This document shows positions 18,257 to 44,246 of a DNA stretch of 64,000 bases, piece after piece. Made by a program: the position numbers and the translations under genes. The stretch comes from Marchantia polymorpha subsp. ruderalis (lineage: Eukaryota; Streptophyta; Marchantiopsida; Marchantiales; Marchantiaceae). The notes under the pieces are model-generated. The model ran no database searches. It saw only the letters and a list, made by a program, of their open reading frames with translations, and was not told where the DNA came from. The stretch lies in contig AP031351.1 of assembly GCA_037833965.1 (NCBI GenBank), forward strand, positions 8,072,501 through 8,136,500, in the 5' to 3' direction. Position 1 is the stretch's first letter; each line of letters starts with the position of its first letter.

Positions 18257-20822
18257 CAGGGTTCCTAAAATCTGGCGTTTTATTTTTAGACGCCAGATTT
18301 GCCAGAATTAATCTGGAAAATATGCCAGAATTAATCAAGCCCACTTAGTCGACACCTGTATGAAGTTTCGACAAAAAATACAAGGATAAGGCTGGAGGTG
18401 TAGGAAGTCAGAATGTAGAAAATCTCGCACGCATCCAAGGGGAGGCGGGGAGTGGATAGCGAGAAGGAGTATCTTAGGTTAGGAATGCATTCCCGAAGGT
18501 CTCTTGTCTCGAACGCAAGCACCGAAGTCACAACGAAGCTTTTGCAATCCATCATGAGTCGAAAAACTCCGTTTCAGGTCAAACATGGCGTCGAGTTTGG
18601 TTTGCAACCGGTACAACGATCTGTACATGGCACCATCACAACAATTCAGTGTTTATTTTGCGTCCATATCGGTCGTGAAAAACGGGACGGTCGTGAAAAA
18701 CGGGATGGTGCAGGTGTGAAGCGATAGAGAACCAAGAACACGCAATTGTTTCAGTTTCCGTTTCGTCTTGAAGCCTATAAAAATCACTTGGAGTCTCAGC
18801 ATCCTGAAGATTGAACCAGTTACCAACTGCTTTCGTATCAAGAAAAAGTTAGTTTCTTCAAGACCAGAGATATATCAAGCATACACCGTTACCTAGACAC
18901 AGACAAGGATACTCTTCAGTTTGTAATTTCTCAGTCTCCGATAGTTGATGTTGTGGTGGGAGATTTGTTTTTTCATCCGGAAGAAGACGAAGAAGACGAT
19001 GTGTTCCAACCAATCACCAAGGCCAACGCCATGAAGTTGTTCAAACTGCAGCCAGACGGATCATACTTGGTTACGATCAAGAACTCTTTGCGGTTCAACC
19101 TTGCCATGCAACATGTTTCTGTTGGACTGTCATTTAGGCAGACAGCCAAGGTGATTGAACAGCATCGTGTAGCGACCAAGAATCCAAAATTGAACGGCCT
19201 CAACGATCATGTGGTGAGTCAGTTTGTGCGTGTGCTCCTTGCCGTCGACCTGCAGATCATCTCCGATATACTCATGGATCCAAAGATTTGGATGTTTTCT
19301 TTAGCGGCTGATGCAAGCACACATTTGGGAGTTCCTGTACTTGACCAGCGAATTCGTGTGTGCGTGAAAGGCGTGTTGTACAACTTCCACCTGGTGCTGG
19401 TTCCATTCTTTGAACGCCATACTGCTCAAAACTATGTCAAGCTCATCAAGACTATGCTTGACAGTGTGTGTCCATCTTGGCGCGACAAAATCATTTCGAT
19501 CAGTTCAGATGGAGAAAACATAATGACAGGTAGGCACGCTGGAGTTGTCACATTGCTTGAGAAGGAATGTTCCAATCCTGTGCTTCGTATTTGGTGCGTT
19601 GCTCATCAGCTTGATATTGTGGTGAAAAATGCCACGCATGGTGTGTTGAACGAGATGTTTTATAAGGTTGCCCATGCGTTTTCTGTGCATCTTCGAGCTC
19701 AACAAAATCTCATCAACAAAATGGGTTCCAAATGCCCAAAGGACACAACGCGATGGGTGGCGTTTGATAGTATTCTTTGTTGGCTTTTGGAACATCGTCG
19801 TCGGTTGATGATTCACGTGGAGAATAGACGACCTATCCAAGTCCCGTCCATGCAATGGTGGATCATTGCAGGAGCTCTATCACCATTGTTTGATCGGATT
19901 GCCGCGACTATCTCCTCAATTCAATCTCCAAAGCTGATCATCTCTAAGCAACGCCAAGAGTTAGCAAAGCTGATGACAGACATTGCAGATAGTTTGGATA
20001 TTCGTTCTACTACAGATGCAGCGCTGAACAAAATTGATTCTATCACAATCGTTCAGCAAGATGGTTTGTTTGTAACCAAAAATTCTATTGTCATGCATAT
20101 ATTAGATCAAGGTTCGTGGGCAAGGGATCTGTATTATGAGCTTTCAGGATTTGAGCAACAGCAGACATTGGAGGAGATAGATACTTTTTCACTCTCTATT
20201 GTGGCAAACGGTTTGTAGATCAAGGCAGAACGTGGTTCTAACAATCATGTCAAGGAATTGGAAGCACCTTCTGTGATGCATTTCTGCAAGCAGATTTAGT
20301 CAAGATGCGTCCTGCTTTATTTATCAGCGAGGTGGTGGATCAATACAGGGCACACCTGGGCAAGCACTGGAGCACTGACATGATCGACAAGGTGGAGAGT
20401 GAACACCGTGACCTGCTACTTATTTACGGGCGTGAGCTGAATGTGAAAGAGACCATTGACAATCACAGCGAGAAGACTTTCTTCAACGAGGCATGGGATT
20501 GTTTAAATGGACGTTTTTTGCATTTGCGACAATTGTGCGGTGGTCTAGCTACTGCTTTTCCAAATACTACCTAAGTTGAAAGCGATTTTTCCATTATTAA
20601 ATGGGAGAAAGATGATTCACGCACAAGGCTGACAAGTATTTCTTTGGCAGGCATTATGCATGCTAAGCAATTTGAAACGCTGAAAACTGTTGTAGCAAAC
20701 CGCTTGGAGGAAAAATAGTGAAGTTAGTGTTAGTGCCAAAATTGCTAGAATTAAGTAGAAAAATCTGCCAGAATTACCGTAATTATGGCAAACCTGGCAT
20801 TTGCCAGATTTTAGTAGGTCTG
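18257..20822 (+). mobile_element. Complete but inactive hAT-family DNA transposon
   Basis: The 2566-bp element begins CAGGGTTCCTAAAATCTGGC and ends with an imperfect inverse (its complement begins CAGACCTACTAAAATCTGGC). It is flanked by 8-bp target duplications CCATAGAC (18249-18256) and CCCTAGAC (20823-20830), differing by one base. CAG-starting short terminal repeats and an 8-bp duplication are the signature of hAT elements. Inside is one transposase with stops and a frameshift, so it cannot move by itself. The single mismatch in the duplication suggests moderate age. Confidence 0.88.
18554..20718 (+). pseudogene. hAT transposase pseudogene with N-terminal zinc finger
   Basis: The reading frame runs from MSRKTPFQ (18554) through a CxxC...HxxxxH zinc finger (QCLFC at the start, NHLESQH later) that resembles BED-type DNA-binding fingers, into an RNase H-like core. 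Recognisable pieces are FRQTAKVIEQH, SLAADAST, ISISSDGENIMTG, RIWCVAHQLD and the C-terminal dimerisation part around LRQLCGGLATAFPNTT, then VESDFSIIKWEKDD. It is broken by a TAG at 18725-18727, a TGA near 18814, a TAG at 20216-20218, a frameshift near 20262 and a TAA at 20572-20574. The longest uninterrupted piece is 18953-20218 (421 codons). It shares the finger and the FRQTA block with the fragments at 34.5-42.2 kb. Confidence 0.88.
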
Positions 20823-31799: not shown

Positions 31800-33650
31800 T
31801 TCTAATATAACAATCTAAATCAAAAGTAATTAACCGTGATAAATCATAGAAATTCTCCACATCTATATTATGAGCAAGCCTAATGTCTTCGTACTTAGAA
31901 AGTGTAACGAATACATGCTCTTCATACTTAATGTACCCACCTTCACATAATCTACAAATAGATTCACTCTTAGCAATATTAAACTAACATCTTTCTCTAT
32001 TCAAGCCTTTGAATCCACTTCTATATCTAGCAATAATATAACGTAAGCACGTAGAGATTCTTGTTCACAATAAACAAGCATAGGACTCACATGAAGTTGA
32101 TAAAATTGCATCTTGATGATGCGTTTGCTCCAAATAATGTTCAGAAATTTTTCATTTAGATGTTCGCGTAGTGCCATAGGTTGCAGGTCCCAATCGCGTT
32201 CTGTCACATTCTACCTCAAAGATCAAATCATCACATCCGCTAACCATCCTTTGGCACGTGTGGCATGCAAAGCTTGAAGAAAAAGGCGAGAAACATCAAG
32301 AGATTTCACACTTCTGATGTAAGTGATGGTGAAGTATAGAGCTTCAACCTCTATCTATAAACAACCAGTTTCAGCAAGAAGAATAGCATATGGAGTTTGG
32401 TTTTTCACACCCAATTCTTCTTTTAGAAATATCTTTTGCACCTTCTCCACACGCTTCCAACCTGTCTTCTTACAACCAAAGCCCCATACTTGGATTCCAT
32501 ATAGTACTACCGACAACACTAAACTTAGATGAGCTCTTCTACACCAATTTAAGAATGAATATAGAGCTTTGTAATCATTTTCTACTTTCTTTTGCACGCT
32601 ATGTGTACAACTGTAATTATTAGAAAAATCAATGCTTAGATATTTATAACTGTTCACATCTTCCAATTGTATATCATTGTAATTGAAATAGAACTTGAAT
32701 CTAGTGCCCACTACCATGACTTTAGACTTTTTTATATTTAACTCCATCTGATTATGGCTACAAAAGCTAATCAAAGTATATAATTATTTCTGTAAACTAA
32801 TTGCATCACGTGCAAGTAATATGATATTCATTAGCATACAAGAGAACTTTGATAACAAAGTTTTCAAGCTTAACACCTTCACTATCACATGCCTCCAACC
32901 ACTCTTTGATATCATATATAAAAACTCCAAATAGAGTAGGAAAGAGACTATAACTTTGAATCATTCCAATGATACTCATTAACTCTTCAGTTTGAAAAGT
33001 GTTGATCTTGGCCCAAATAAAGTGGTATTATAATGTGGCCACAGATGCTAGAAGATCTGATGGTACTCTAATGATTTGCAACCTTATCCATAAAAGCTCA
33101 CGAGGTATATTGTTTAAAGCTTTCTTAAAATTGATGAAGGCGCGAAACAAAACTTTTCCATTGCTCTTAGAATTCTCCCATCAAACACGGAAGACCAAGA
33201 TGTGGTCAATGGTGTTGTATGTAGGGCAAAAACTTCAAACCGCACTCACTTTTGATGAGATTATGTCCATGTACTCAACTTTGACTCCATCAATTTGCCA
33301 AACAACTTGGCAAAAACATTACCCACCATTATAGTGCGATAGTTTGTCACCAAGCCTTTCCTTCCTGATTTATAAATAGAAAAGATCTTTTGTAAAGACC
33401 AAGTTGAAGGAAAATTATACATAGAAGCATTCTCTAATGCTTTAGTGAGTATTGATCCAATAATATCTCCTTCTCATTTAAAAAGTTCAATAGAGATTTC
33501 ATCCAAATACTTTGATTTACCATTTGCTAAATTTTTGACTTGAATTAATACCAGGTCTATGTACATTAGGCATTCTAAAAATAGATGCTTAATATCCCTA
33601 ATATTAAATGTCTTGAATACCTAATCTTCAAAAAACTTTCATGAACATTC
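31800..33650 (-). mobile_element. Decayed LINE (non-LTR retrotransposon) reverse transcriptase fragment
   Basis: Read on the minus strand from high to low coordinates, broken frames give the finger-region block NYRTIMVGNVFAKLFGKLME, then SLFPTLFGVFIYDIKEWLEA and LLYANEY near the active-site region, then MELNIKKSKVMVVG and YKYLSIDF (32355-32774), and finally a C-terminal zinc-finger-like CRLCEGGYIKYEEHV. This order is that of LINE ORF2 proteins. No endonuclease domain was seen, and stops and frame changes are frequent, so it is a 5'-truncated, dead copy. The boundaries are approximate. Confidence 0.75.
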
Positions 33651-33689
33651 AACGGAGGAAAGAAATTTTTCTCGAACATTCAACGCAGG

Positions 33690-34465
33690 AAAGAAGAGGA
33701 GTCGCTTTGCTCGCGTGCTCCGTTTGAAGTGGACGTTAACTGAGGTGTGGACAACTTTGAGGATTTACTATAAACCCGTAGATTTACCAATTCTTTGCTT
33801 GTTTTTGATCTCAAAATTCAATGTTTTCTTTCTTCACTGTACTTATGTACAATAACTTTTTTGACGTTGCAGGAAGAGCAACCCAACGTTCGAAGCAATC
33901 GTAGAATTTGTCACACAACTATAGCTTCTGTCTATACGGCGGAAGTCCAAAGGAGAGGAGGCTTGGAAGAATCCAACAGGCGGCTCAGTGTGTCTCAATC
34001 ACATGTGAGATTTAGAAGAAAGTATGTGATTGAAAAATATTCCTCGTTTGTTTGCAACCAACCAAAGAATGCATTGAATGTTTTTCTCTTCATGTACACA
34101 ATCTTATCTAGAAGGTAGTGTGTTTTTGTGTGTAGCTTTTGGACAACTATTTTTCTCGTATTGATTATGTTAAGACAGCCCTTCGAGACCAAGCTCAACC
34201 TCTTCAATTTCACGTGACTCACATTTTTGACTATGCATTTTTTCTGAAGGTTTTGGAGCCCTTGCTTCTAAAATTGTGATTTGTTATAACTCGTTAGAAG
34301 ATTGCTTAAGATCAAATATAAAAGAAAAAGATGTATAAGAAACTATCTGAACGCATGAAAGAAGAGAAGTTGCTTCGTTTGTGTGCTCCGTTTGAAGTGG
34401 GCGTTAACTGATGTGTGGACAACTTTGAGTACTAACTATACACCCGTAGATTTACCAATTCTTTT
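33690..34465. repeat. Pair of about 110-bp direct repeats flanking 570 bp of unassigned DNA
   Basis: The sequences at about 33690-33800 and 34368-34465 are similar along their length (both include TGCTCCGTTTGAAGTGG and CCCGTAGATTTACCAATTCTTT). They lie in the same orientation about 680 bases apart. Between them an open frame (33795-34118) contains EEQPNVRSNRRICHT after an acceptor-like TTGCAG, but no family is recognised. The arrangement could be a segmental duplication or remnants of a terminal-repeat element. Confidence 0.6.
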
Positions 34466-36466
34466 TTTTTTTAAGGAATATAAAAGTGAACCAGACCAGT
34501 GCTAGAGAGTGGTGATTTAATCTTTTTCTCGTGAATCTTGATTTCCAACAAGAGGTGGAATCTGCCAAGAAGTCAATAGGCTTACTAGGAGCGTCTTTCA
34601 TTCATGGTTGGAATAGCAAAACGGTCGAACGCGGTGCCGACGCGCATGACACCTTTCAATTCGTCGCATCAACTAGAATATGGTCTTCAGATTTCAAACG
34701 AGGTTTTGTCACGAGTTGAATCATTGTAGTTGCATGCAGATTCTATACAATCTTTGGTTGGGAGAGCAAAATTGGTGCAAAACGTCAAAAAGCTACCACG
34801 AAGAAGACGTTTGGTCAAGCATTTCGTCTTGAAAACTACCGCATACATCTCAAAAGCGAGCACTCGATTTGTTGGGAAGAGTATCAATCACTCTGTACAG
34901 AAAGTAAGATTACTTACTTTGACATTGATGTCACATCTTGACAAGGATACTGACCATGTAATCTACAACATTGAGAAAAGCATAGTTGAGATTATCATAG
35001 TAGAAATGTTATGGTATCTCAAAGATTTTGAAGGCCAAAACTATGAGATCGCAATGCGTGTATTCATGCTAGATACTCACACATGAAACTATTTCGTGAT
35101 TATCAAAACCCCAAGGGTGTACCAACTTGCAATTAAATATATTGGCATTGGTATTAGTTTCAGACAGACTGCATTGGCGCTTCAGGCAACCAAGGAAGTT
35201 GCTATGGTCTCCAAGCTAGGTGAGATGAATGATTTGAAAATTGCTACATTTGTACGCGTATAATGCAATGCCAATTTTCAAATTATTTCCAATATCTTAC
35301 GCATGGTGTGCGCATTCTCAATCGTTCTAGATGTTTCAACTTGCATGGGTACTTCATACATAGATATTTGTGCTCGTTTTGTTTGGCGACGCCAGCTTTA
35401 TAATTTGCATCTTATATCTATTTTGTTTTACGGATGTCATACGCGTTTGTCACAGTTTGAAGTTTTGTGCAAATTATTTGATGTGCACTTTCCCAGCTGA
35501 CTAGTCATGTTGCAGGTGTTATTACACGTCTTCAACAATGTTCATTGGAAGGATTCATCCGTGTCTGGTGTATTCTTCATCAATTGGACATTCCGCTACA
35601 GGAGGCATACTTGAAGCTAGATGGGGGTGCATGGTTTGCGACACTAGTATCTATGATCTCGCACCTGCGTTGACAACAGAAGCTTATTTCCATGATGAAA
35701 TCAACTTGTCCCAAGACATCTACAACTAGATGACATGCCATGTTTAGTGCTATAAGTTGGCTCGATGATCATCATCATGAAATCAGTGCACATTATCTTG
35801 AAATTCTAGTGAGTTCTTCTCGGCGCGCATCTCAACCTGAAAGTGATACAGTGGAATCTGTCTAAAATAATACTCTTGAGAATTCCCCTAATTGATTTAT
35901 GAAGATTATTAGTTTACGGAGAGTGATGTCCGGCGCCTTGTATTCTTGTCAGAAACTCGCAAGGCACGCACCCCTCCACCACACAGACCACAACTACCAA
36001 CCAAACACACCTTGCAGCACCAAACACGATCAGCAATCCGCCAAATCGCAACTGCTCTCAACATGCCGCTATAGGGAGTGAAGCACACTACAATGTCGGA
36101 TAAGATCCGCATTGACCTTTGCAAGCATCACGTTGCAAATCCTAAGCTGACACAGAAACAACTTGTCAGCTGGCTCCAGCAAAAGCACGACGTTAAAGTC
36201 AGCCAAGGCATAGTCTCCAACACGCTCAACCGGTTGGTAGAGCTGCCCCAGCTTGACCAAGAGGTTGCAAACCAGAACAGCAAACGTCAGCGTTCAGTCA
36301 AGTATCCCATGATGGAAGACGCACTCGTCGCTTGGTTCCACAGCCATCAAGACCACGTCAACCTGAGCGGTGAACTCGTGTGTGAAGCTGCTCAACAGAT
36401 GCTCGACAAGCTCTATTCCGACCATGACCGTAGCTTCAAGTATTCCAATGGCTGACTGGAGGCGTT

Positions 36467-39400
36467 GTGGTGCCTAGTTTTTTTGTTTTCTTTAAAAATC
36501 AACAAAACTAAAATATATTTGTGTAGAAAGTAGCCGTATGAGTTAGAATGAGTAGCTTTTGAGGAGTTATGATAGGATTAGTTAGTATTTGCCTACTGCC
36601 AAAGATCTTCAGGTCTTCGGATCTTTGGCTCAACCTTTTCTGGACAGTGCAAGAGCTGCGTCTTCGGCAAAGACATTGAAATCAATTTGAATTGCGCAAC
36701 GGGCCGCACGACGTTTGCACACGTCAAGAATTCTATTGGGCGCGGGAGGAGGCAATGGTAGGGCTTCAAGGGTAAGGGCATTATGAGGAGCATTAGTGCC
36801 GACATTGCAATATTGAGCAAGAACGAGCGAGAGTGAGAGAGAGCGTAATCGACCGACCTTGCTAGCAGCGAAGACGCGAATTGGAGACATGGCGCCGCCC
36901 AAGAAGAGTGACAAGGTGTGGAAATTGGTCCCCTTGAAGGTGCTCTACGAGGAATTACGACCCTTCAGGTGCGAGCTGAGCGAATTGCGTTTCAATTTCC
37001 TTTTGTGGAACTGGAATTGCATCTCGGTGAGTATCTGCAAGGAGATTATGGATAAGAACGAGACCGAGGGCGAGGATCTCGGAGATAATCCCATGCTGTG
37101 GACGATTGAAATTTGGGCGAAGGTGATGGGACTGTGCGCAGGTAGCGATGAGGATATCTTGTTCGAGAAGAGTAGCGTGATACTTACGCGCACAGAAGAA
37201 TAATCTTACAGGCCACTCTTGAATTCCGGGAGGCAAGGGACGAATGGATGGAAGACCGCCGACTACCAGGATCCGAAGAGACGGGCGATTGCACTGGGGA
37301 TTATGCATATCTTGCGACCGGCGCGCACGACGTATGTGACGGCTTGACAAGTAGGGTTCTTCGAGCGAATCTTGAATGGACAGAGAGTACATTGGGCAAG
37401 AATCTTTTACGATCTTGTATGGGTGAATGCGAGCTCATGGAGGACCGGACCGTTGGTCAATCATCTGACTTCCTTCCTTGTGAATTTCTATCGAGGCATG
37501 GATTTGCTTACAAGGGAAGAGGAGAAGCGATTTCCGAGGGAACGGGAAATCTTGACAGCTGAGTCAAGTGAAGGAACCAAAAACAATAACCGTCGACTTT
37601 CGTGGACGTTCTGCCAAATCGGGAGAGGCCAAAACGGCGATTGGCGAAGAGAAGAAAAGTGGTGAGTGATGACGAGGGAGATTTGGCGCTAGAGATCAAA
37701 AGAGCGGAAACGGAGGTAGAAGTAATCAGGCAGTCGAGAACTCGCGCGAGATCAAAGAGGAAGGCGAGTTGAGGATTGATGGTAACTAAAATATCGGATA
37801 ATAGCTTGGAAAAGACAGTTGCCCCAAGTGTGAGTACACCCGAAGTCGCAGTTGGCGAGTCGACACAGCCTATGAAGATCGAAGGACCTTCGGGGGTACT
37901 AACTGAAGTTTCAGGAGATGTACCGGTGGAACCTTTGAAGGAGGGAACGGAGATGGTAAGTCCGAATTCTTTGTATTCGGAGCGGACACGGTCTGTGGGG
38001 AGTGAGGAAGTACTTCAACCGAAGACAAGCGAAGAATTGGTGAAGGAGCTTACACTAAGTGACGAAATACTTGAGCAGGTTGTTGCGCAGGTTGGAGGTT
38101 TCGCTACTGAAATATCTGGACATGAAGAGAGAGAAGTATGTTGTGTCCAAGGAGGTAGGATTCTATGTAGAGATGGTGAGGAATAGGACGCCGCTCAAGA
38201 GAGCAGTAGCGGTGAAGAGGGAGTGAGATTCCGCGACTAAGATGTCACGGGAGCGAGCTGCAATCTTGTTAGCCGAGTGCGCGGCAGCGAAGGCGGCAGT
38301 GAAGGAGCGAGAATCTCAGCATCGGGAGAAGGAGATCGAGTGCAAAGTGCTGCAATTGAATTCATCGAAGTAATCCGGACGGTGTGCAGAGTTAGACGGA
38401 ACTTGAGCTGGACTTCATGTCTCTAACGAGAATGGGCAGAAGATGACAACGGATTTGCTCACGAGGTTCGAGAAATCCAGAGAAGCGTATGATGAGGCAG
38501 TCAAACGATCGGAGCGACTAAACACAACAGCGGAGAAGCAAGAGAAGAAGCATGTCGAAGAACTTGCTAAGTTGGAGGCCCGAAGAGCCGAAGAAGTTCG
38601 TATCACCAAAGAACTTCGGGGGAAGATTGCAGAGGCGAAGACGGCGGAAGAAGATCTTCGTAGCAAGATTGCGGAGATTGCGGGGAAGTGCGAGATGGAA
38701 TTCCGACGTGTGGAGGAGCTATCAACGAGTCTGGCGGAGGGAGTCCGGAAGCATGAAGAGGAGTTGGCGAATTGGCCAAGAAATTGGCAAATTGCGAATC
38801 GGCAAAGTCTTCGGAGGTCGAATGTAAATTGAAGGTTGAATCGGAATGTCGACGGTTGTGGGAGCAGTTAGGCAAAGCAGACATGAGATCGCAAGAGTCG
38901 CAAAGGAGAATGGAGAAGGCAGAGGAGGCCTACCGTCAGCTACGGTCAACCGACGAGTTGAAGTTGCGTCTAGAGAAGTGTCTGAACGGATTTGCGATGT
39001 GAGGATTGCAAACGGTGACGTGGCTGAAGCTAGATTCGCTTGAGCACTTTGATAAACAGAAGCTATTTTGACTGGCTGAATTAAGGTATTAGTTTTTGTT
39101 TGATTAGAAAATAAAGATTGCATTTTTTTCAAAGCAACGGTTGATGAGCACCAAGATTCAATGGATCCGTATGATACAAACAAATTGTAGAGTTAGATAA
39201 TTCGTTTGTATCGTTTGTATTTGTATTCGTTTGTAAAATATTCCAAAGTTGCCATTGTGAATAAAGAGGCCCAAGGCTCTTTCCTTGGAGGGCTTTTCTA
39301 TCAATTGGCTTGTTTTGACTATAAACCTGCGTCCACTGCGTGTCTGTGTGCTAGTGTGTGATCCAGACATCGAGCACAGTGCGTTCCTGTTTGTCAAAGT

Positions 39401-39795
39401 TACCGCATTGGAAGTTGTGAGTATTCAGCTTGAATGTTATGAGTAGCCGAGTGTTCCTTGGAATTTAAGCAAATTCAAGTCTGGGTATTCGGGTCATTGT
39501 GTCGGGATGTACGCAATACTGGAAAATTCTCCCCCTTGAATATGAGTGTGGGGTCGCAAGCGATTCCCACAAGTGTTGATTGGAAAAGTTTCAAGTTGTG
39601 AGTGTGATTACGCACTACTTTGCGGATCTTTGGCTCTAGCTGGGTAGTGTCTTCTTGAAGTGGCATTGGCCTAAGAAGTAAAACTCCTTGATAGAATGCT
39701 AATATGTGACAAATCGTGACTTTTGTGGTTGTTTCTATCCTCGTGGAATCAGATCTGTACCATTATGCTCCATTTTGATATTTGTCTGTCATTAC
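36467..39795 (+). mobile_element. 3.3-kb insertion inside the pogo transposase, with 7-bp flanking repeat
   Basis: The transposase sequence breaks after NG-stop-LEA and resumes with AFKKRHN; both edges carry AGGCGTT (36460-36466 and 39796-39802), consistent with a 7-bp target duplication. The inserted DNA carries the coiled-coil family pseudogene and about 400-750 bp of flank on each side. Its ends (GTGGTGCC... and ...TCATTAC) show only weak inverse similarity, and there is no poly(A), long terminal repeat or transposase that I recognise. The right edge also looks like a splice acceptor (ATTACAG), so insertion within an intron is the alternative reading. Confidence 0.6.
36890..39043 (+). pseudogene. 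Pseudogene of a multicopy liverwort-type protein (N-terminal globular part plus long coiled coil)
   Basis: Start MAPPKKSDKVWKLVPLKV at 36890; an intact frame runs to 37203, then a one-base frameshift, a stop replacing Trp at about 37347, and further frame changes. Successive parts: helical N-terminal region (DPKRRAIALGIMHILRPA, RVHWARIFYDLVWVNAS, FYRGMDLLTREEEKRFP), basic linker, an acidic Ser/Pro/Glu-rich middle (37776-38186), and a K/E/R-rich coiled coil (38221-39000) with LARFEKSREAYDEAV-like heptads. I recall such proteins, distantly like plant mobile-domain proteins, as a large family in Marchantia; that recollection cannot be checked here. The function is unknown. Several lesions make this copy non-coding. 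Confidence 0.6.
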
Positions 39796-42170
39796 AGGCG
39801 TTCAAGAAGCGCCACAACATCCACTCGCACCGGCGCTTTAGAGAGAGTGGCAGCGTGAACAAGCAAATCATCGATAAAAGCCTTCCTCGTCTTCATGAAA
39901 CGTTGGATAAGTTCGAGTGGAAAGATATCTACAACATGGAGTAGACTGGCCTCTTTTTTTGAATGCAGGTATTTTTTATGTTCATCAAATTTCTTGGTTT
40001 GTAGACGACGTGATTCAAATCTAACACACTGCCCAACATCAGGCGGACAATTTTCTTGCCACACGGCAACTAGAGGGTCTGAAGCAGAACAAGGAACGCA
40101 TCACTATGGCGGTCCGCTGCAATGGTGATGGCGACAAGCTTCCGCTCTGGATCATCGGGATGTAAGCCCAATCTGAGGTGCTTCAAAAATGTCAACCGTG
40201 GAAATCTTGGTTGCACCTACCAAAACAATTCAAAAGCTTGGATGGCGCAACTAATCTTCCTTGAATGACTTTGACCGGCAAGACTTTGACCGGCAAATGA
40301 CTTAACCAAAAAGTTATGTTGATTCTCGAAAACTGTAGCGTCCACGTTCAGGTTGACGAGCTTCCCAAATGGATCACACTTTGCAACACAACCATTTTCT
40401 ACCTCCCACCGAACACAACGTCAAAGATCCAACGTTGCGACCAAGTAATCATCCGCAACTTCAAGGCCTACTACCGCCAAAGTTTCAACCGCCTGCTTCT
40501 GCAGCGTCTGAATGACAAGGTTGAGCAGCCTGAGAAGATCGATGTTCTTCAAGCCATTCCGATGGTAGTGCCTGCATGATCTACGGACATCAAGCCTACA
40601 ACAATCCACAACTGCTTCTGCCATTGCAAGATTCGGTCAGAGGGAACCGATGCCATCCCAATTAACGAGAACGAGCTCTTGGATCAAGCTGTCATGGAAG
40701 AACTGGAGTAGCAAATTTGCCAGTTCCGTTATCTCAACCCAATGGACATCTGCAACCTGTTGAAATACCCCGTAGAAGACGAGATTGCGTACATCCAGAA
40801 TGTTGATGATGTCATCAACGATCATCTTAGCAACGAAGCAGACGATGGCGGCAATGCAGACGATGACAGCCAGGAGCAATCGAGGATCAGTCTCACCGAG
40901 GCTCAGAAGATGCTTCAGACGCTTCAACTGTTTAGGATGCAACATGAAGCAGATTCTCAAAACTTCCTTCCGTCACTTCAACGCATGAAGTATATCATCA
41001 GCAAGATTTGTGTCAACCAGATGGTCTAGAAGTACATTCGTCAGTTCTTCAACAATTCGTACAATTGATGAATACTGATCCGTCACAATTACGTAGGATT
41101 TTTTTGTTCGTATGTAGGAAAAAAAAATATATATTTTTTAGAGACCGCCAATTTCAATTAATAATCAAATTACGGAGGAATATTAATTTATGTATGGGCC
41201 GGGGCGCAGGACCGGCAAATCTGATTGATTAATGGAGGTTTTTAATTTGGGGAGTATTATTTTAGACAGGTTTACTGTATTTGGTGGGTTCTTAATGTTG
41301 TCATAAGGAGCATCACAAGTGCTATACATACGACGGTGATGCGACTGTAAGGTCATCGGTTGACGCTTAGGCAACAACAAACATATGTTGAACTATTAAT
41401 TGGTGAGTAACTGCTCAAGATCAGTGCAATTCGCAATTCCAACTTTGAAAATGTGGACGAATTCGCTTATGTCATCCGCAACAATTGGACAGCTTCCTAT
41501 ATTGACATCACTGGCTTTATTGAAGATCTTGGGCATTTTGCTTTGACTATAATCAACAATTTTGAGTGAACCAATTCGGTAAGTATTTTTTTGGAATGTT
41601 GCGTTTCTTATATTTGATATTGTTGATGGCTTTATGGAGTGTATAGCATTGCAAGATGAACGCGGGTCAAGCAGCGATATGGACAGTCCACCTGTGTATT
41701 CATTTGAATTAGTGAAACTTAAAGGTCGTGATATTAGCCGTCTCATTATCCAAAAGAAGTCTCGTCTTGATTGTAGTTGGTCTCCCTCTGCAATTGACAA
41801 AATTGGCTTTCAATTTATAGAGCTTTGTATCATGTACAAAAATGTCTCAGCTTGTAGAGAAGTCATAGATACTTGTGATGATCAGTGCTCATTTGACGAT
41901 GCGTGATCACTCTCATGTTTATCAGGCCGTTTCAATTTTTTTAGAAGATTTTGTCGGTGGACTAGGTTCACCGTTTCTATATAGAGCTCCTATCGAGAGT
42001 GACTTCTCAATGTTGAAATTCAGGAAGGATGTTTTTACAATGTCATTGACAGATTTTTCTCTAGAATGATTTCTCCAATGTAAATAGTATGATTTGTTGC
42101 GCACCTTGAAGCAATAAAACTGAAAGATTATGCTTACTGAAAGAGAATTCATGCTTCAGAGCTTGCTGAA

Positions 42171-44246
42171 ACTGTATCATTCATTTGTAGACTTATGTTG
42201 AATTGGATAGAATCAGTAAGAAGATTTTTTTTGATTTTTTAGATTGTCTGTAAACAATGATGCCTGCCTAATTTCATTCTGTATGTGTGCCTAATATACT
42301 TATATTAGGCACAAATAGGCATATGTCTAACGTACAGAGGCCTAGTCATCAACTTTGATTCAAAAAATTAGCGAAGTATTTCTTCACAACAAGTCATTGA
42401 TGCAGCGGAATGGAATAAAGCTTTTCAGCAAATTCATTCAAACTCTTGGGATCAAGAGTAGGTTTAGAAGACCGTACTGTTATACTATTATCAAAAAAAT
42501 TGAGGATTCTCCATAAGCTCCTTTGTCAATTATGCTTACTTCATACTCAAAAAAGCTCGTTTCTTGGACTTCATCAAATCTATGTAGAACCTTGTCAATA
42601 AAATCCGACTTTGGAGATATAAAGACTTAGTCAACTGATCTCATACTCCGCTTGCAATCAAAATCAAACCATCTATTGCAAGCAAAACTCCTAGCTCTTT
42701 GATTCTTCTGCTGCAAAAAAAACTGAGAAACAGTTATTCACTAGCTGTATGTGGATCATTTGACTCTTAAATAATATGGGAAGTTGGGTTCGCACTTGTT
42801 GCTAACCCCATTAGCAACAAGTCAGATAATTTTATTGCTATCCTTGGATGAATCACTTAGTCCACATACAACTTGGGTGCAATTTAGTACTAACACTTGG
42901 CCACTATTATATTATTATGGGCTTCTTCGGATTGACATCTGCACAGGGGTGTCGTTACAACTGCCATGTGTCATATGATACTCGTCGATCCAACTTCCTA
43001 CGGCTAGGTGATGCATCTCATAGCGCTGATAATTCTTGGCAAACCCACGGATTTGAGTTTTGTCAGCATCATGTCAGCTACTAATGAGTAAAACTGAATG
43101 TAATCTATCGCTGGCCGCCCCGCCCATATCAGCAATACAACATTAGTTGGGCCTGTGATATCTCAAGAGCTCGATTTCATAGTGCAACACCTACTGGGGA
43201 TATTTCAAACATGCCAGAAGATCCCATGATTGAAAATTTCTTTGATACTCATAGCTCACTGGCTGGACCACGCGTGGTATGAGGCCATCCATTATCAAGA
43301 ACATCCACTTGGTTGCAAATGTGCAGTTTTCCAGACAACTTTGAAATACAATATTCACATCGGTGACTCTGGTGAGGGATTGGAAGTGTTCTGCTTCTCG
43401 ACTTGGCCCCTTTATCCTGGGCTATAAGGATAGACGATCTCCCCGCATATGGATGGCGATCTCAGAAGTACCGACCATTTGAGAATCATGGAACTCACAC
43501 ATATAGTCTCCACATACACTGTGACACAAAGCATTATCTGGCGATGAGGTGGAAGGAACCGCTGGAAACTTTGAGGTGAGTGGAGATTATGATAATTTCA
43601 AAGCCTAAAATCGACTGCACATGGGTTAAGCCGGTTTCCCGGTAATTGGCTGCTGAAGCGCTCTCGTTGCTCTAGTCAACGGAATTCATTCGTTATGCTC
43701 GTCACCGCATTACGCTGTGCGCTATGTTGGTGTCCAACGAGCATTGTCAACGCATGTAGACCAATACACGGACTCCACCAGCACCCTGAACGGTAACATT
43801 TTAGATAAACACGTCTGAGAATTTCAACATTGTGAGAACACTGCTCTTGTGACAAACACATGAGTATTCTATCCAGCAAAGCTCCAAACCATCTTATACA
43901 CAAGTTCGTGAAAGGATAAGAAGAGAAAATACAGCACAAGATATTTTCTGCGAGAGAAAAACTTAATGCAAGAAGGAACATCGCCATGGGTTGATATAAT
44001 CGAAGCTAACGTAAGTACAAAGTGATGACTAAACCTTACAATCTGAGATTCTACCTGATTTGAATGGCGAGTGTGTGGTAAGAATTGGTGATTTCAGCAC
44101 GACATCATCCTTCTTAGTACATATATGAGCTTCATGCTCAGTGTCGAGTGAGTGCATTTGTGCTGTGAATACTTCCCATGCAGAAACATAAATACGGCAA
44201 AACTTGATAATTGACTTCGATAAGGGGCACTTGTGGTCAAATGGTC
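42171..44246. other. Intergenic DNA between the nested transposons and the RLSB gene
   Basis: A 12-bp-arm inverted repeat lies at about 42287-42312 (GTGCCTAATATA). Frames at 42784-43084 and 43230-43427 (containing HPLGCKCAVFQTTLKYN) and on the minus strand at 43676-43987 are open but unrecognised and without clear splice sites. Part of 43.7-44.25 kb is probably the 3' UTR of the minus-strand RLSB gene. Confidence 0.4.

Follow-up and report, generated by a model that had tools for sequence, protein, structure and literature searches.

Structure of the locus

The window analysed here is a 64,000-nucleotide stretch of the genome of Marchantia polymorpha (contig C2, positions 8072501-8136500); the genome searched comprised 9 contigs with 241,466,482 bases. 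The locus consists of four nested insertion layers, each inside the previous one. A LINE-like repeat (layer 1) contains a TIR transposon (layer 2), which contains a pogo element (layer 3), which in turn contains a solo LTR (layer 4; Table 1). This order follows from the fact that each element is interrupted by the next. Target duplications are present at two junctions of the nest (TA and GGCGT) and inverted ends at the third, and empty sites for layers 1, 2 and 3 were found among paralogues in the same genome. A sequence-only reading of the window had described a three-level nest and proposed a check for empty sites. Its relative order of outer transposon, pogo and insert agrees with the empty copies, which are present within this genome for each interrupted layer, but the layers number four, the outermost having been overlooked. 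Searches found no tRNA genes across the window and no Rfam matches at 33000-44000.

Table 1. Features of the nested locus (positions in the window)
Feature	Position	Strand	Basis or remark
Layer 1, left part of high-copy repeat	32400-33549	-	RT-like minus-strand frames; probably continues further left
Layer 2, TIR DNA transposon (hAT-like), interrupted by pogo	33550-42346	+	Inverted ends; 8 relatives read
TA target site, left copy	35847-35848		Flank of pogo
Layer 3, pogo/Tigger-type element	35849-41277	+	Inverted CAGT... ends, each about 26-27 bp long
GGCGT target site duplication, left copy	36461-36465		Flank of layer 4
Layer 4, solo LTR (TG...CA), Ty3/gypsy	36466-39796	+	Ends, 5-bp duplications, internal flanks in other copies
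Remains of LTR-borne coding region	36889-39260	+	ATG kept; ends just before AATAAA; frame shifts
GGCGT target site duplication, right copy	39797-39801		Flank of layer 4
TA target site, right copy	41278-41279		Flank of pogo
Layer 1, right part (continuation of repeat)	42347-42734	-	Matches adjacent part of repeat

The two outer layers

The left part of the layer-1 repeat (32400-33543) matches 39 other scored places at 83-84%, mostly over the full stretch (best 40 of 1169 candidates), and the right part matches 39 other scored places at 80-81% (best 40 of 689 candidates). Among the matches scored, the two parts lie adjacent to each other, with a 2-base gap, in at least eight places, and all four copies fetched read through the layer-2 insertion site. 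The minus-strand frames are presumably those of a LINE reverse transcriptase, which they resemble; a Pfam search of these short frames gave no match, neither to RVT_1 nor to an endonuclease domain. On almost all contigs the best left-part copies are grouped in a single interval in the middle of the chromosome (for example C4 19.88-20.13 Mb and C9 10.43-10.76 Mb; one copy lies apart, at C7 17.35 Mb), a pattern that centromeric repeats might show. Right-part matches are more scattered (best 40 of 689 candidates).

The outer element had been placed at 34530-42170 in the earlier reading. These limits have to be replaced by those of the inverted ends, and the element sits inside a further repeat. 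The two ends (33550-33573 and 42323-42346) are alike at 19 of 24 bases; the right end was taken from relatives and its partner was found once in the window, at 33550. An 8-bp target duplication would be typical of hAT elements; that of layer 2 is degenerate, with its left copy at 33549. Transposase remains do flank the pogo element, as had been stated, and reading frames located in 34720-35497 and 41583-41903 agree with those of a relative in 73-83% of amino acids, but the hAT identity is one of resemblance, without Pfam support. The transposase is hAT-like in its spacing SDG-N---G--AGV-T-L...WC--HQLD. The hAT dimerisation domain PF05699 gave no match in the scanned frames of the layer-2 family, and none of the 150 genome matches to PF05699 listed falls in known layer-2 copies, which is a weak test because the frames are broken and divergent. 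PDB sequence searches with layer-2 relatives gave no match, and a single-sequence structure model of one relative (window 18815-20215), made to look for the RNase-H-like fold and insertion domain of hAT transposases, had a mean pLDDT of 35, too poor to use. The window also contains, at 18815-20571, a longer-framed relative of the layer-2 transposase (467 aa, 32% identity, no Pfam match) with CAGGG-like inverted stretches seen by eye near 18260 and 20825. The left arm of layer 2 carries a direct repeat (33682-33806 and 34350-34472, 87% alike).

The pogo element

The bounds, TA sites and matching inverted ends previously described for the pogo/Tigger element are all present, the ends being CAGTGGAATCTGTCTAAAATAATACTC and, apart from slight deviations, its inverse. 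Most left-flank matches end at 35848, and those to the right flank begin at or near 41278. Eight layer-2 copies were compared at this site. The two halves overlap by exactly TA in five (L035, L036, L037, L039 and L042) and meet within about 6 bases in L040 and L041, and L038 lacks about 75 and about 56 bases on the two sides of the pogo site. Pfam detected HTH_Tnp_Tc5 (PF03221) and HTH_ABP1_N (PF18107) in 36075-36455 and DDE_1 (PF03184, E 9e-16) in 40301-40579. Layer 3 shares the TA duplication, CAGT ends, Tc5-type HTH and DDE_1 with pogo/Tigger elements (Tc1/mariner group), and nothing basic sets it apart from them.

The transposase gene is split by the layer-4 insert and is broken elsewhere too. 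The reported break between LEA and AFKKRHN is confirmed by the four other long copies (L043-L046), all of which are continuous across the insertion point (84.7-87.5% over pieces); the other pogo matches obtained are shorter or much weaker. These four copies have the same type of ends, some with substitutions. In the four copies no frame spans the transposase gene, and the longest open piece has 236 aa.

The insert as a solo LTR

The insert begins with TGTGGTGCC and finishes with CATTACA, with GGCGT on either side. It had been described as 3329 bp between two copies of AGGCGTT. A repeat does lie on both sides, but that form is two bases too long because the outer A and T belong to element and flank; the true insert is 3331 bp and the duplication is GGCGT. 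The segment had also been called gene-bearing. A gene is present, but the segment itself is the solo LTR of a Ty3/gypsy retrotransposon with LTRs of about 3.5 kb, and the gene lies inside the LTR. The window copy is a solo LTR because the duplications lie directly outside it. Comparison of the first with the last 1200 bases of the insert revealed no significant repeat (best E 0.08, nine copies tested).

Pattern searches of the genome with up to 3 mismatches gave 727 matches for the right end (1 for its control) and 250 for the left end (0 for its control). Five of the first nine copies, window included, have an exact 5-bp duplication, which is absent or unclear in the other four. In 20 further copies, picked for well-kept ends on both sides, the duplication is exact in 10, has one mismatch in 6 and is absent in 4, and exact duplication occurs in 0 of 380 non-partner flank pairs. 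Among the 4 that lack it, L073/L074 carries an internal flank, as expected of a 5' LTR. A 1-kb internally deleted copy (L059) has its own TATGT duplication. A 9.2-kb copy (L058), considered as a long autonomous version, is actually an LTR copy that a different gypsy element has interrupted.

The flanks show that some copies of the family belong to larger units. After the LTR end, TAGATAAATTTTTCTTTTGGC or a close variant is shared by 12 of the 100 right flanks listed (123 matches), and before TGTGGTG, ATGGGGAGAGGAGTA or a close variant is shared by 11 of the 100 left flanks listed (104 matches), as counted by eye with the window row included in each list. In these other copies the shared right flank is a primer-site-like stretch and the shared left flank a polypurine tract. 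Shared LTR flanks can also stem from segmental duplication, and six other left flanks, in two groups (four on C5 and two on C4) with a different kind of shared flank, look like segmental duplications. At one site on contig C1 (L057), the LTR end is followed by the shared stretch with a TGGCGC primer-site-like piece and then, in gypsy order, by frames for gag (weak), reverse transcriptase, RNase H and integrase (weak). Pfam matches to RVT_1 and RT_RNaseH are well above their cut-offs, and those to Retrotrans_gag (E 9e-4) and rve (E 1e-6) lie below theirs. The TGGCGCC... of this flank presumably fits a tRNA end. With its TG...CA LTR, 5-bp duplication, primer site and polypurine tract, the layer-4 family resembles other Ty3/gypsy LTR retrotransposons.

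This unit (C1:1796524-1813335), a candidate full-length element, has LTR matches at both ends and AAGTG at both outer sides (left side in L102). Its 5' LTR gives matches to the beginning and to a late stretch of the coding region. Another stretch, at about 1406-1419 kb of C1, was rejected as a full-length unit on its unlike outer flanks (ATGAC vs GGTCG), and in a third candidate other sequence occupies the position where the 3' LTR should end. At 6776-8000 of L057, a further LTR copy of this family lies in inverted orientation across the last part of the larger unit's integrase frame.

The coding region inside the LTR

The LTR contains a coding region of some 800 codons in the gag-pol sense, measuring about 2.4 kb from ATG to stop in the window. 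The ATG is present in all 12 aligned LTR copies. The stop that closes the region overlaps AATAAA in most copies, and this motif is intact in 10 of 12. The region is broken in every one of the 12 copies, and the longest open piece within one uninterrupted LTR stretch has 387 codons (L056). The window copy is degenerate at about 39040-39240, being T-rich and unaligned where the 11 other copies align mutually; another small insertion, or a deletion patched with filler DNA, may account for this stretch.

The codon positions of variants were compared in 48 overlapping frames of the 12 copies, with uncorrected p-values. In a 185-aa frame of the N-terminal part, variants found in 3 or more of the 12 copies are distributed 10/4/36 over first, second and third positions (uncorrected p 3e-8), and counts of 7/2/29 and 8/5/28 were obtained for frames of 144 and 158 aa, the three frames overlapping one another. 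Single-copy variants are even in the same frames (57/63/58, 44/39/47 and 47/39/52, respectively), and the non-coding LTR ends, used as controls, gave 17/12/9 and 9/10/9. The third-position excess is weaker or absent in many frames further on, and four off-frame readings present the same variant sites with shifted position. In the coil-rich middle, single-copy variants lean to first positions (for example 60/28/39, p 0.002, and 49/21/37). Because common variants in the N-terminal part concentrate on third positions and those of single copies are spread evenly, purifying selection probably acted on the LTR protein during the multiplication of the family.

A Pfam search of the LTR protein returned no convincing family, with a weak tropomyosin match (E 0.05) in the coil part. 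Relatives of the protein occur in two other, diverged families, with 25-67% amino acid identity over short stretches and a best E of 1e-18. Family B (L056, from 1615 to about 5776) runs from TGTGGTAGC to ATCACA, has the duplication ATTGG and encodes a relative of the protein. This element is solo-LTR-like and sits inside a copy of the layer-4 LTR family (family A). Family C (L101) encodes a relative in several protein stretches. The DNA of families A and B aligns over about 100 bases near the right end only.

Formation of the nest and alternative explanations

The locus very probably reflects four successive insertions, with a retrotransposon LTR that carries its own, probably selected, coding region. 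An hAT-like TIR transposon hit an old LINE-like repeat, and a pogo element then entered a TA inside the gene of that transposon. Next, a Ty3/gypsy retrotransposon landed in the pogo transposase gene and duplicated 5 bp there, after which its two LTRs would have recombined and left one LTR behind, a recombination that we infer from the solo form; the nesting and the target sites themselves are seen directly. Given the probable purifying selection, the LTR region most likely encodes a protein that serves the element in some accessory way.

It is hardly credible that the nest is an assembly artefact or a product of ectopic recombination. Repeats are dense at the locus, but the TA and GGCGT duplications, the inverted ends at the third junction and the empty sites in paralogues all speak against such an origin. 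The 3.3-kb piece has also been considered as a gene-capturing, non-autonomous DNA transposon whose short inverted ends would be TGT...ACA. That reading, once a working idea, would account for the missing repeat between the two ends of the insert, for the weakly inverted TGTGGTGCC and TGTAATGAC and for the internally deleted copy with a duplication of its own. It was dropped on the shared primer-site-like and polypurine flanks (12 and 11, respectively, of 100 listed) and, since gag-pol also lies within a unit having matching outer flanks, is very improbable. Somewhat less remote, but still unlikely, is that the gene began as a separate element, entered an ancestral LTR and has since been a passenger that plays no part there. 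The extra genes of plant LTR elements described in PMC7264820 sit in the internal region, and codon positions give a weak or mixed signal over much of the coil-rich middle, as this explanation would allow. The third-position excess of common variants in the N-terminal part argues against it, as do the related proteins of families with LTR DNA that can barely be aligned to that of layer 4. An LTR with a coding region of its own remains the preferred reading.

Dating of the layers by private substitutions was dropped, as the differences add nothing in favour of the layer order. Private divergence is 8.6% for the LTR (5.0% after the 39000-39399 bins are dropped), 5.4% for pogo and 4.1% for layer 2, in a weak test whose thresholds differ among layers; the values are similar across layers and do not mirror the nesting order.

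Comparison with other elements

The nesting itself is ordinary; the point of interest is an LTR-internal, probably selected gene with a sex-chromosome bias. As in other nested transposon stacks of plants, elements lie within elements and their order is read from target duplications, with no basic difference except that four element kinds occur here at one small site. The stack provides a clean relative chronology of these four kinds in a model liverwort. The sag gene of mouse mammary tumour virus is located inside the LTR and is alike in position, although element and host are unrelated. Some exact-phrase searches of open-licence literature for a gene inside a plant LTR listed no papers, and another listed a few. 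The Ty3/gypsy elements with additional ORFs described in PMC7264820 are likewise gag-pol elements that carry, in sense orientation, an additional coding region apparently under selection, but their additional ORFs are located in the internal region, whereas the Marchantia coding region lies inside the LTR. It is therefore retained in solo LTRs. A protein gene inside the LTR changes what a solo LTR is, and hundreds of copies that may be annotated as hypothetical genes or as solo LTRs would then represent one and the same gene of a transposon.

Distribution on the chromosomes

The genome sizes given for MarpolBase v7.1 in PMC13078153 are 242,451,485 bp for Tak-1 and 248,042,680 bp for Tak-1 plus chrU, a difference of 5,591,195. 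Contig C1 has 5,591,195 bases and, by this exact size match, is the female sex chromosome U of M. polymorpha Tak-2 or a very close plant. C1 makes up 2.3% of the genome yet carries 24 of 56 exact left ends of the LTR, 41 of 104 left ends and 36 of 123 right ends, an enrichment of 12.6- to 18.5-fold. The C1 rows are complete in all three lists of LTR ends because rows are ordered by contig within each mismatch class. On balance, the data favour a group of Ty3/gypsy elements in Marchantia that carry a selected accessory gene in their LTRs, in which LTR-LTR recombination yields stand-alone gene units and one family is strongly concentrated on chromosome U. This concentration perhaps arose via the LTR-encoded protein or via the lack of recombination there, and the bias makes sex-chromosome targeting or retention directly testable. 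Among the matches listed, 8 of the 12 copies with an internal right flank and 8 of the 11 with a polypurine left flank are also on C1.
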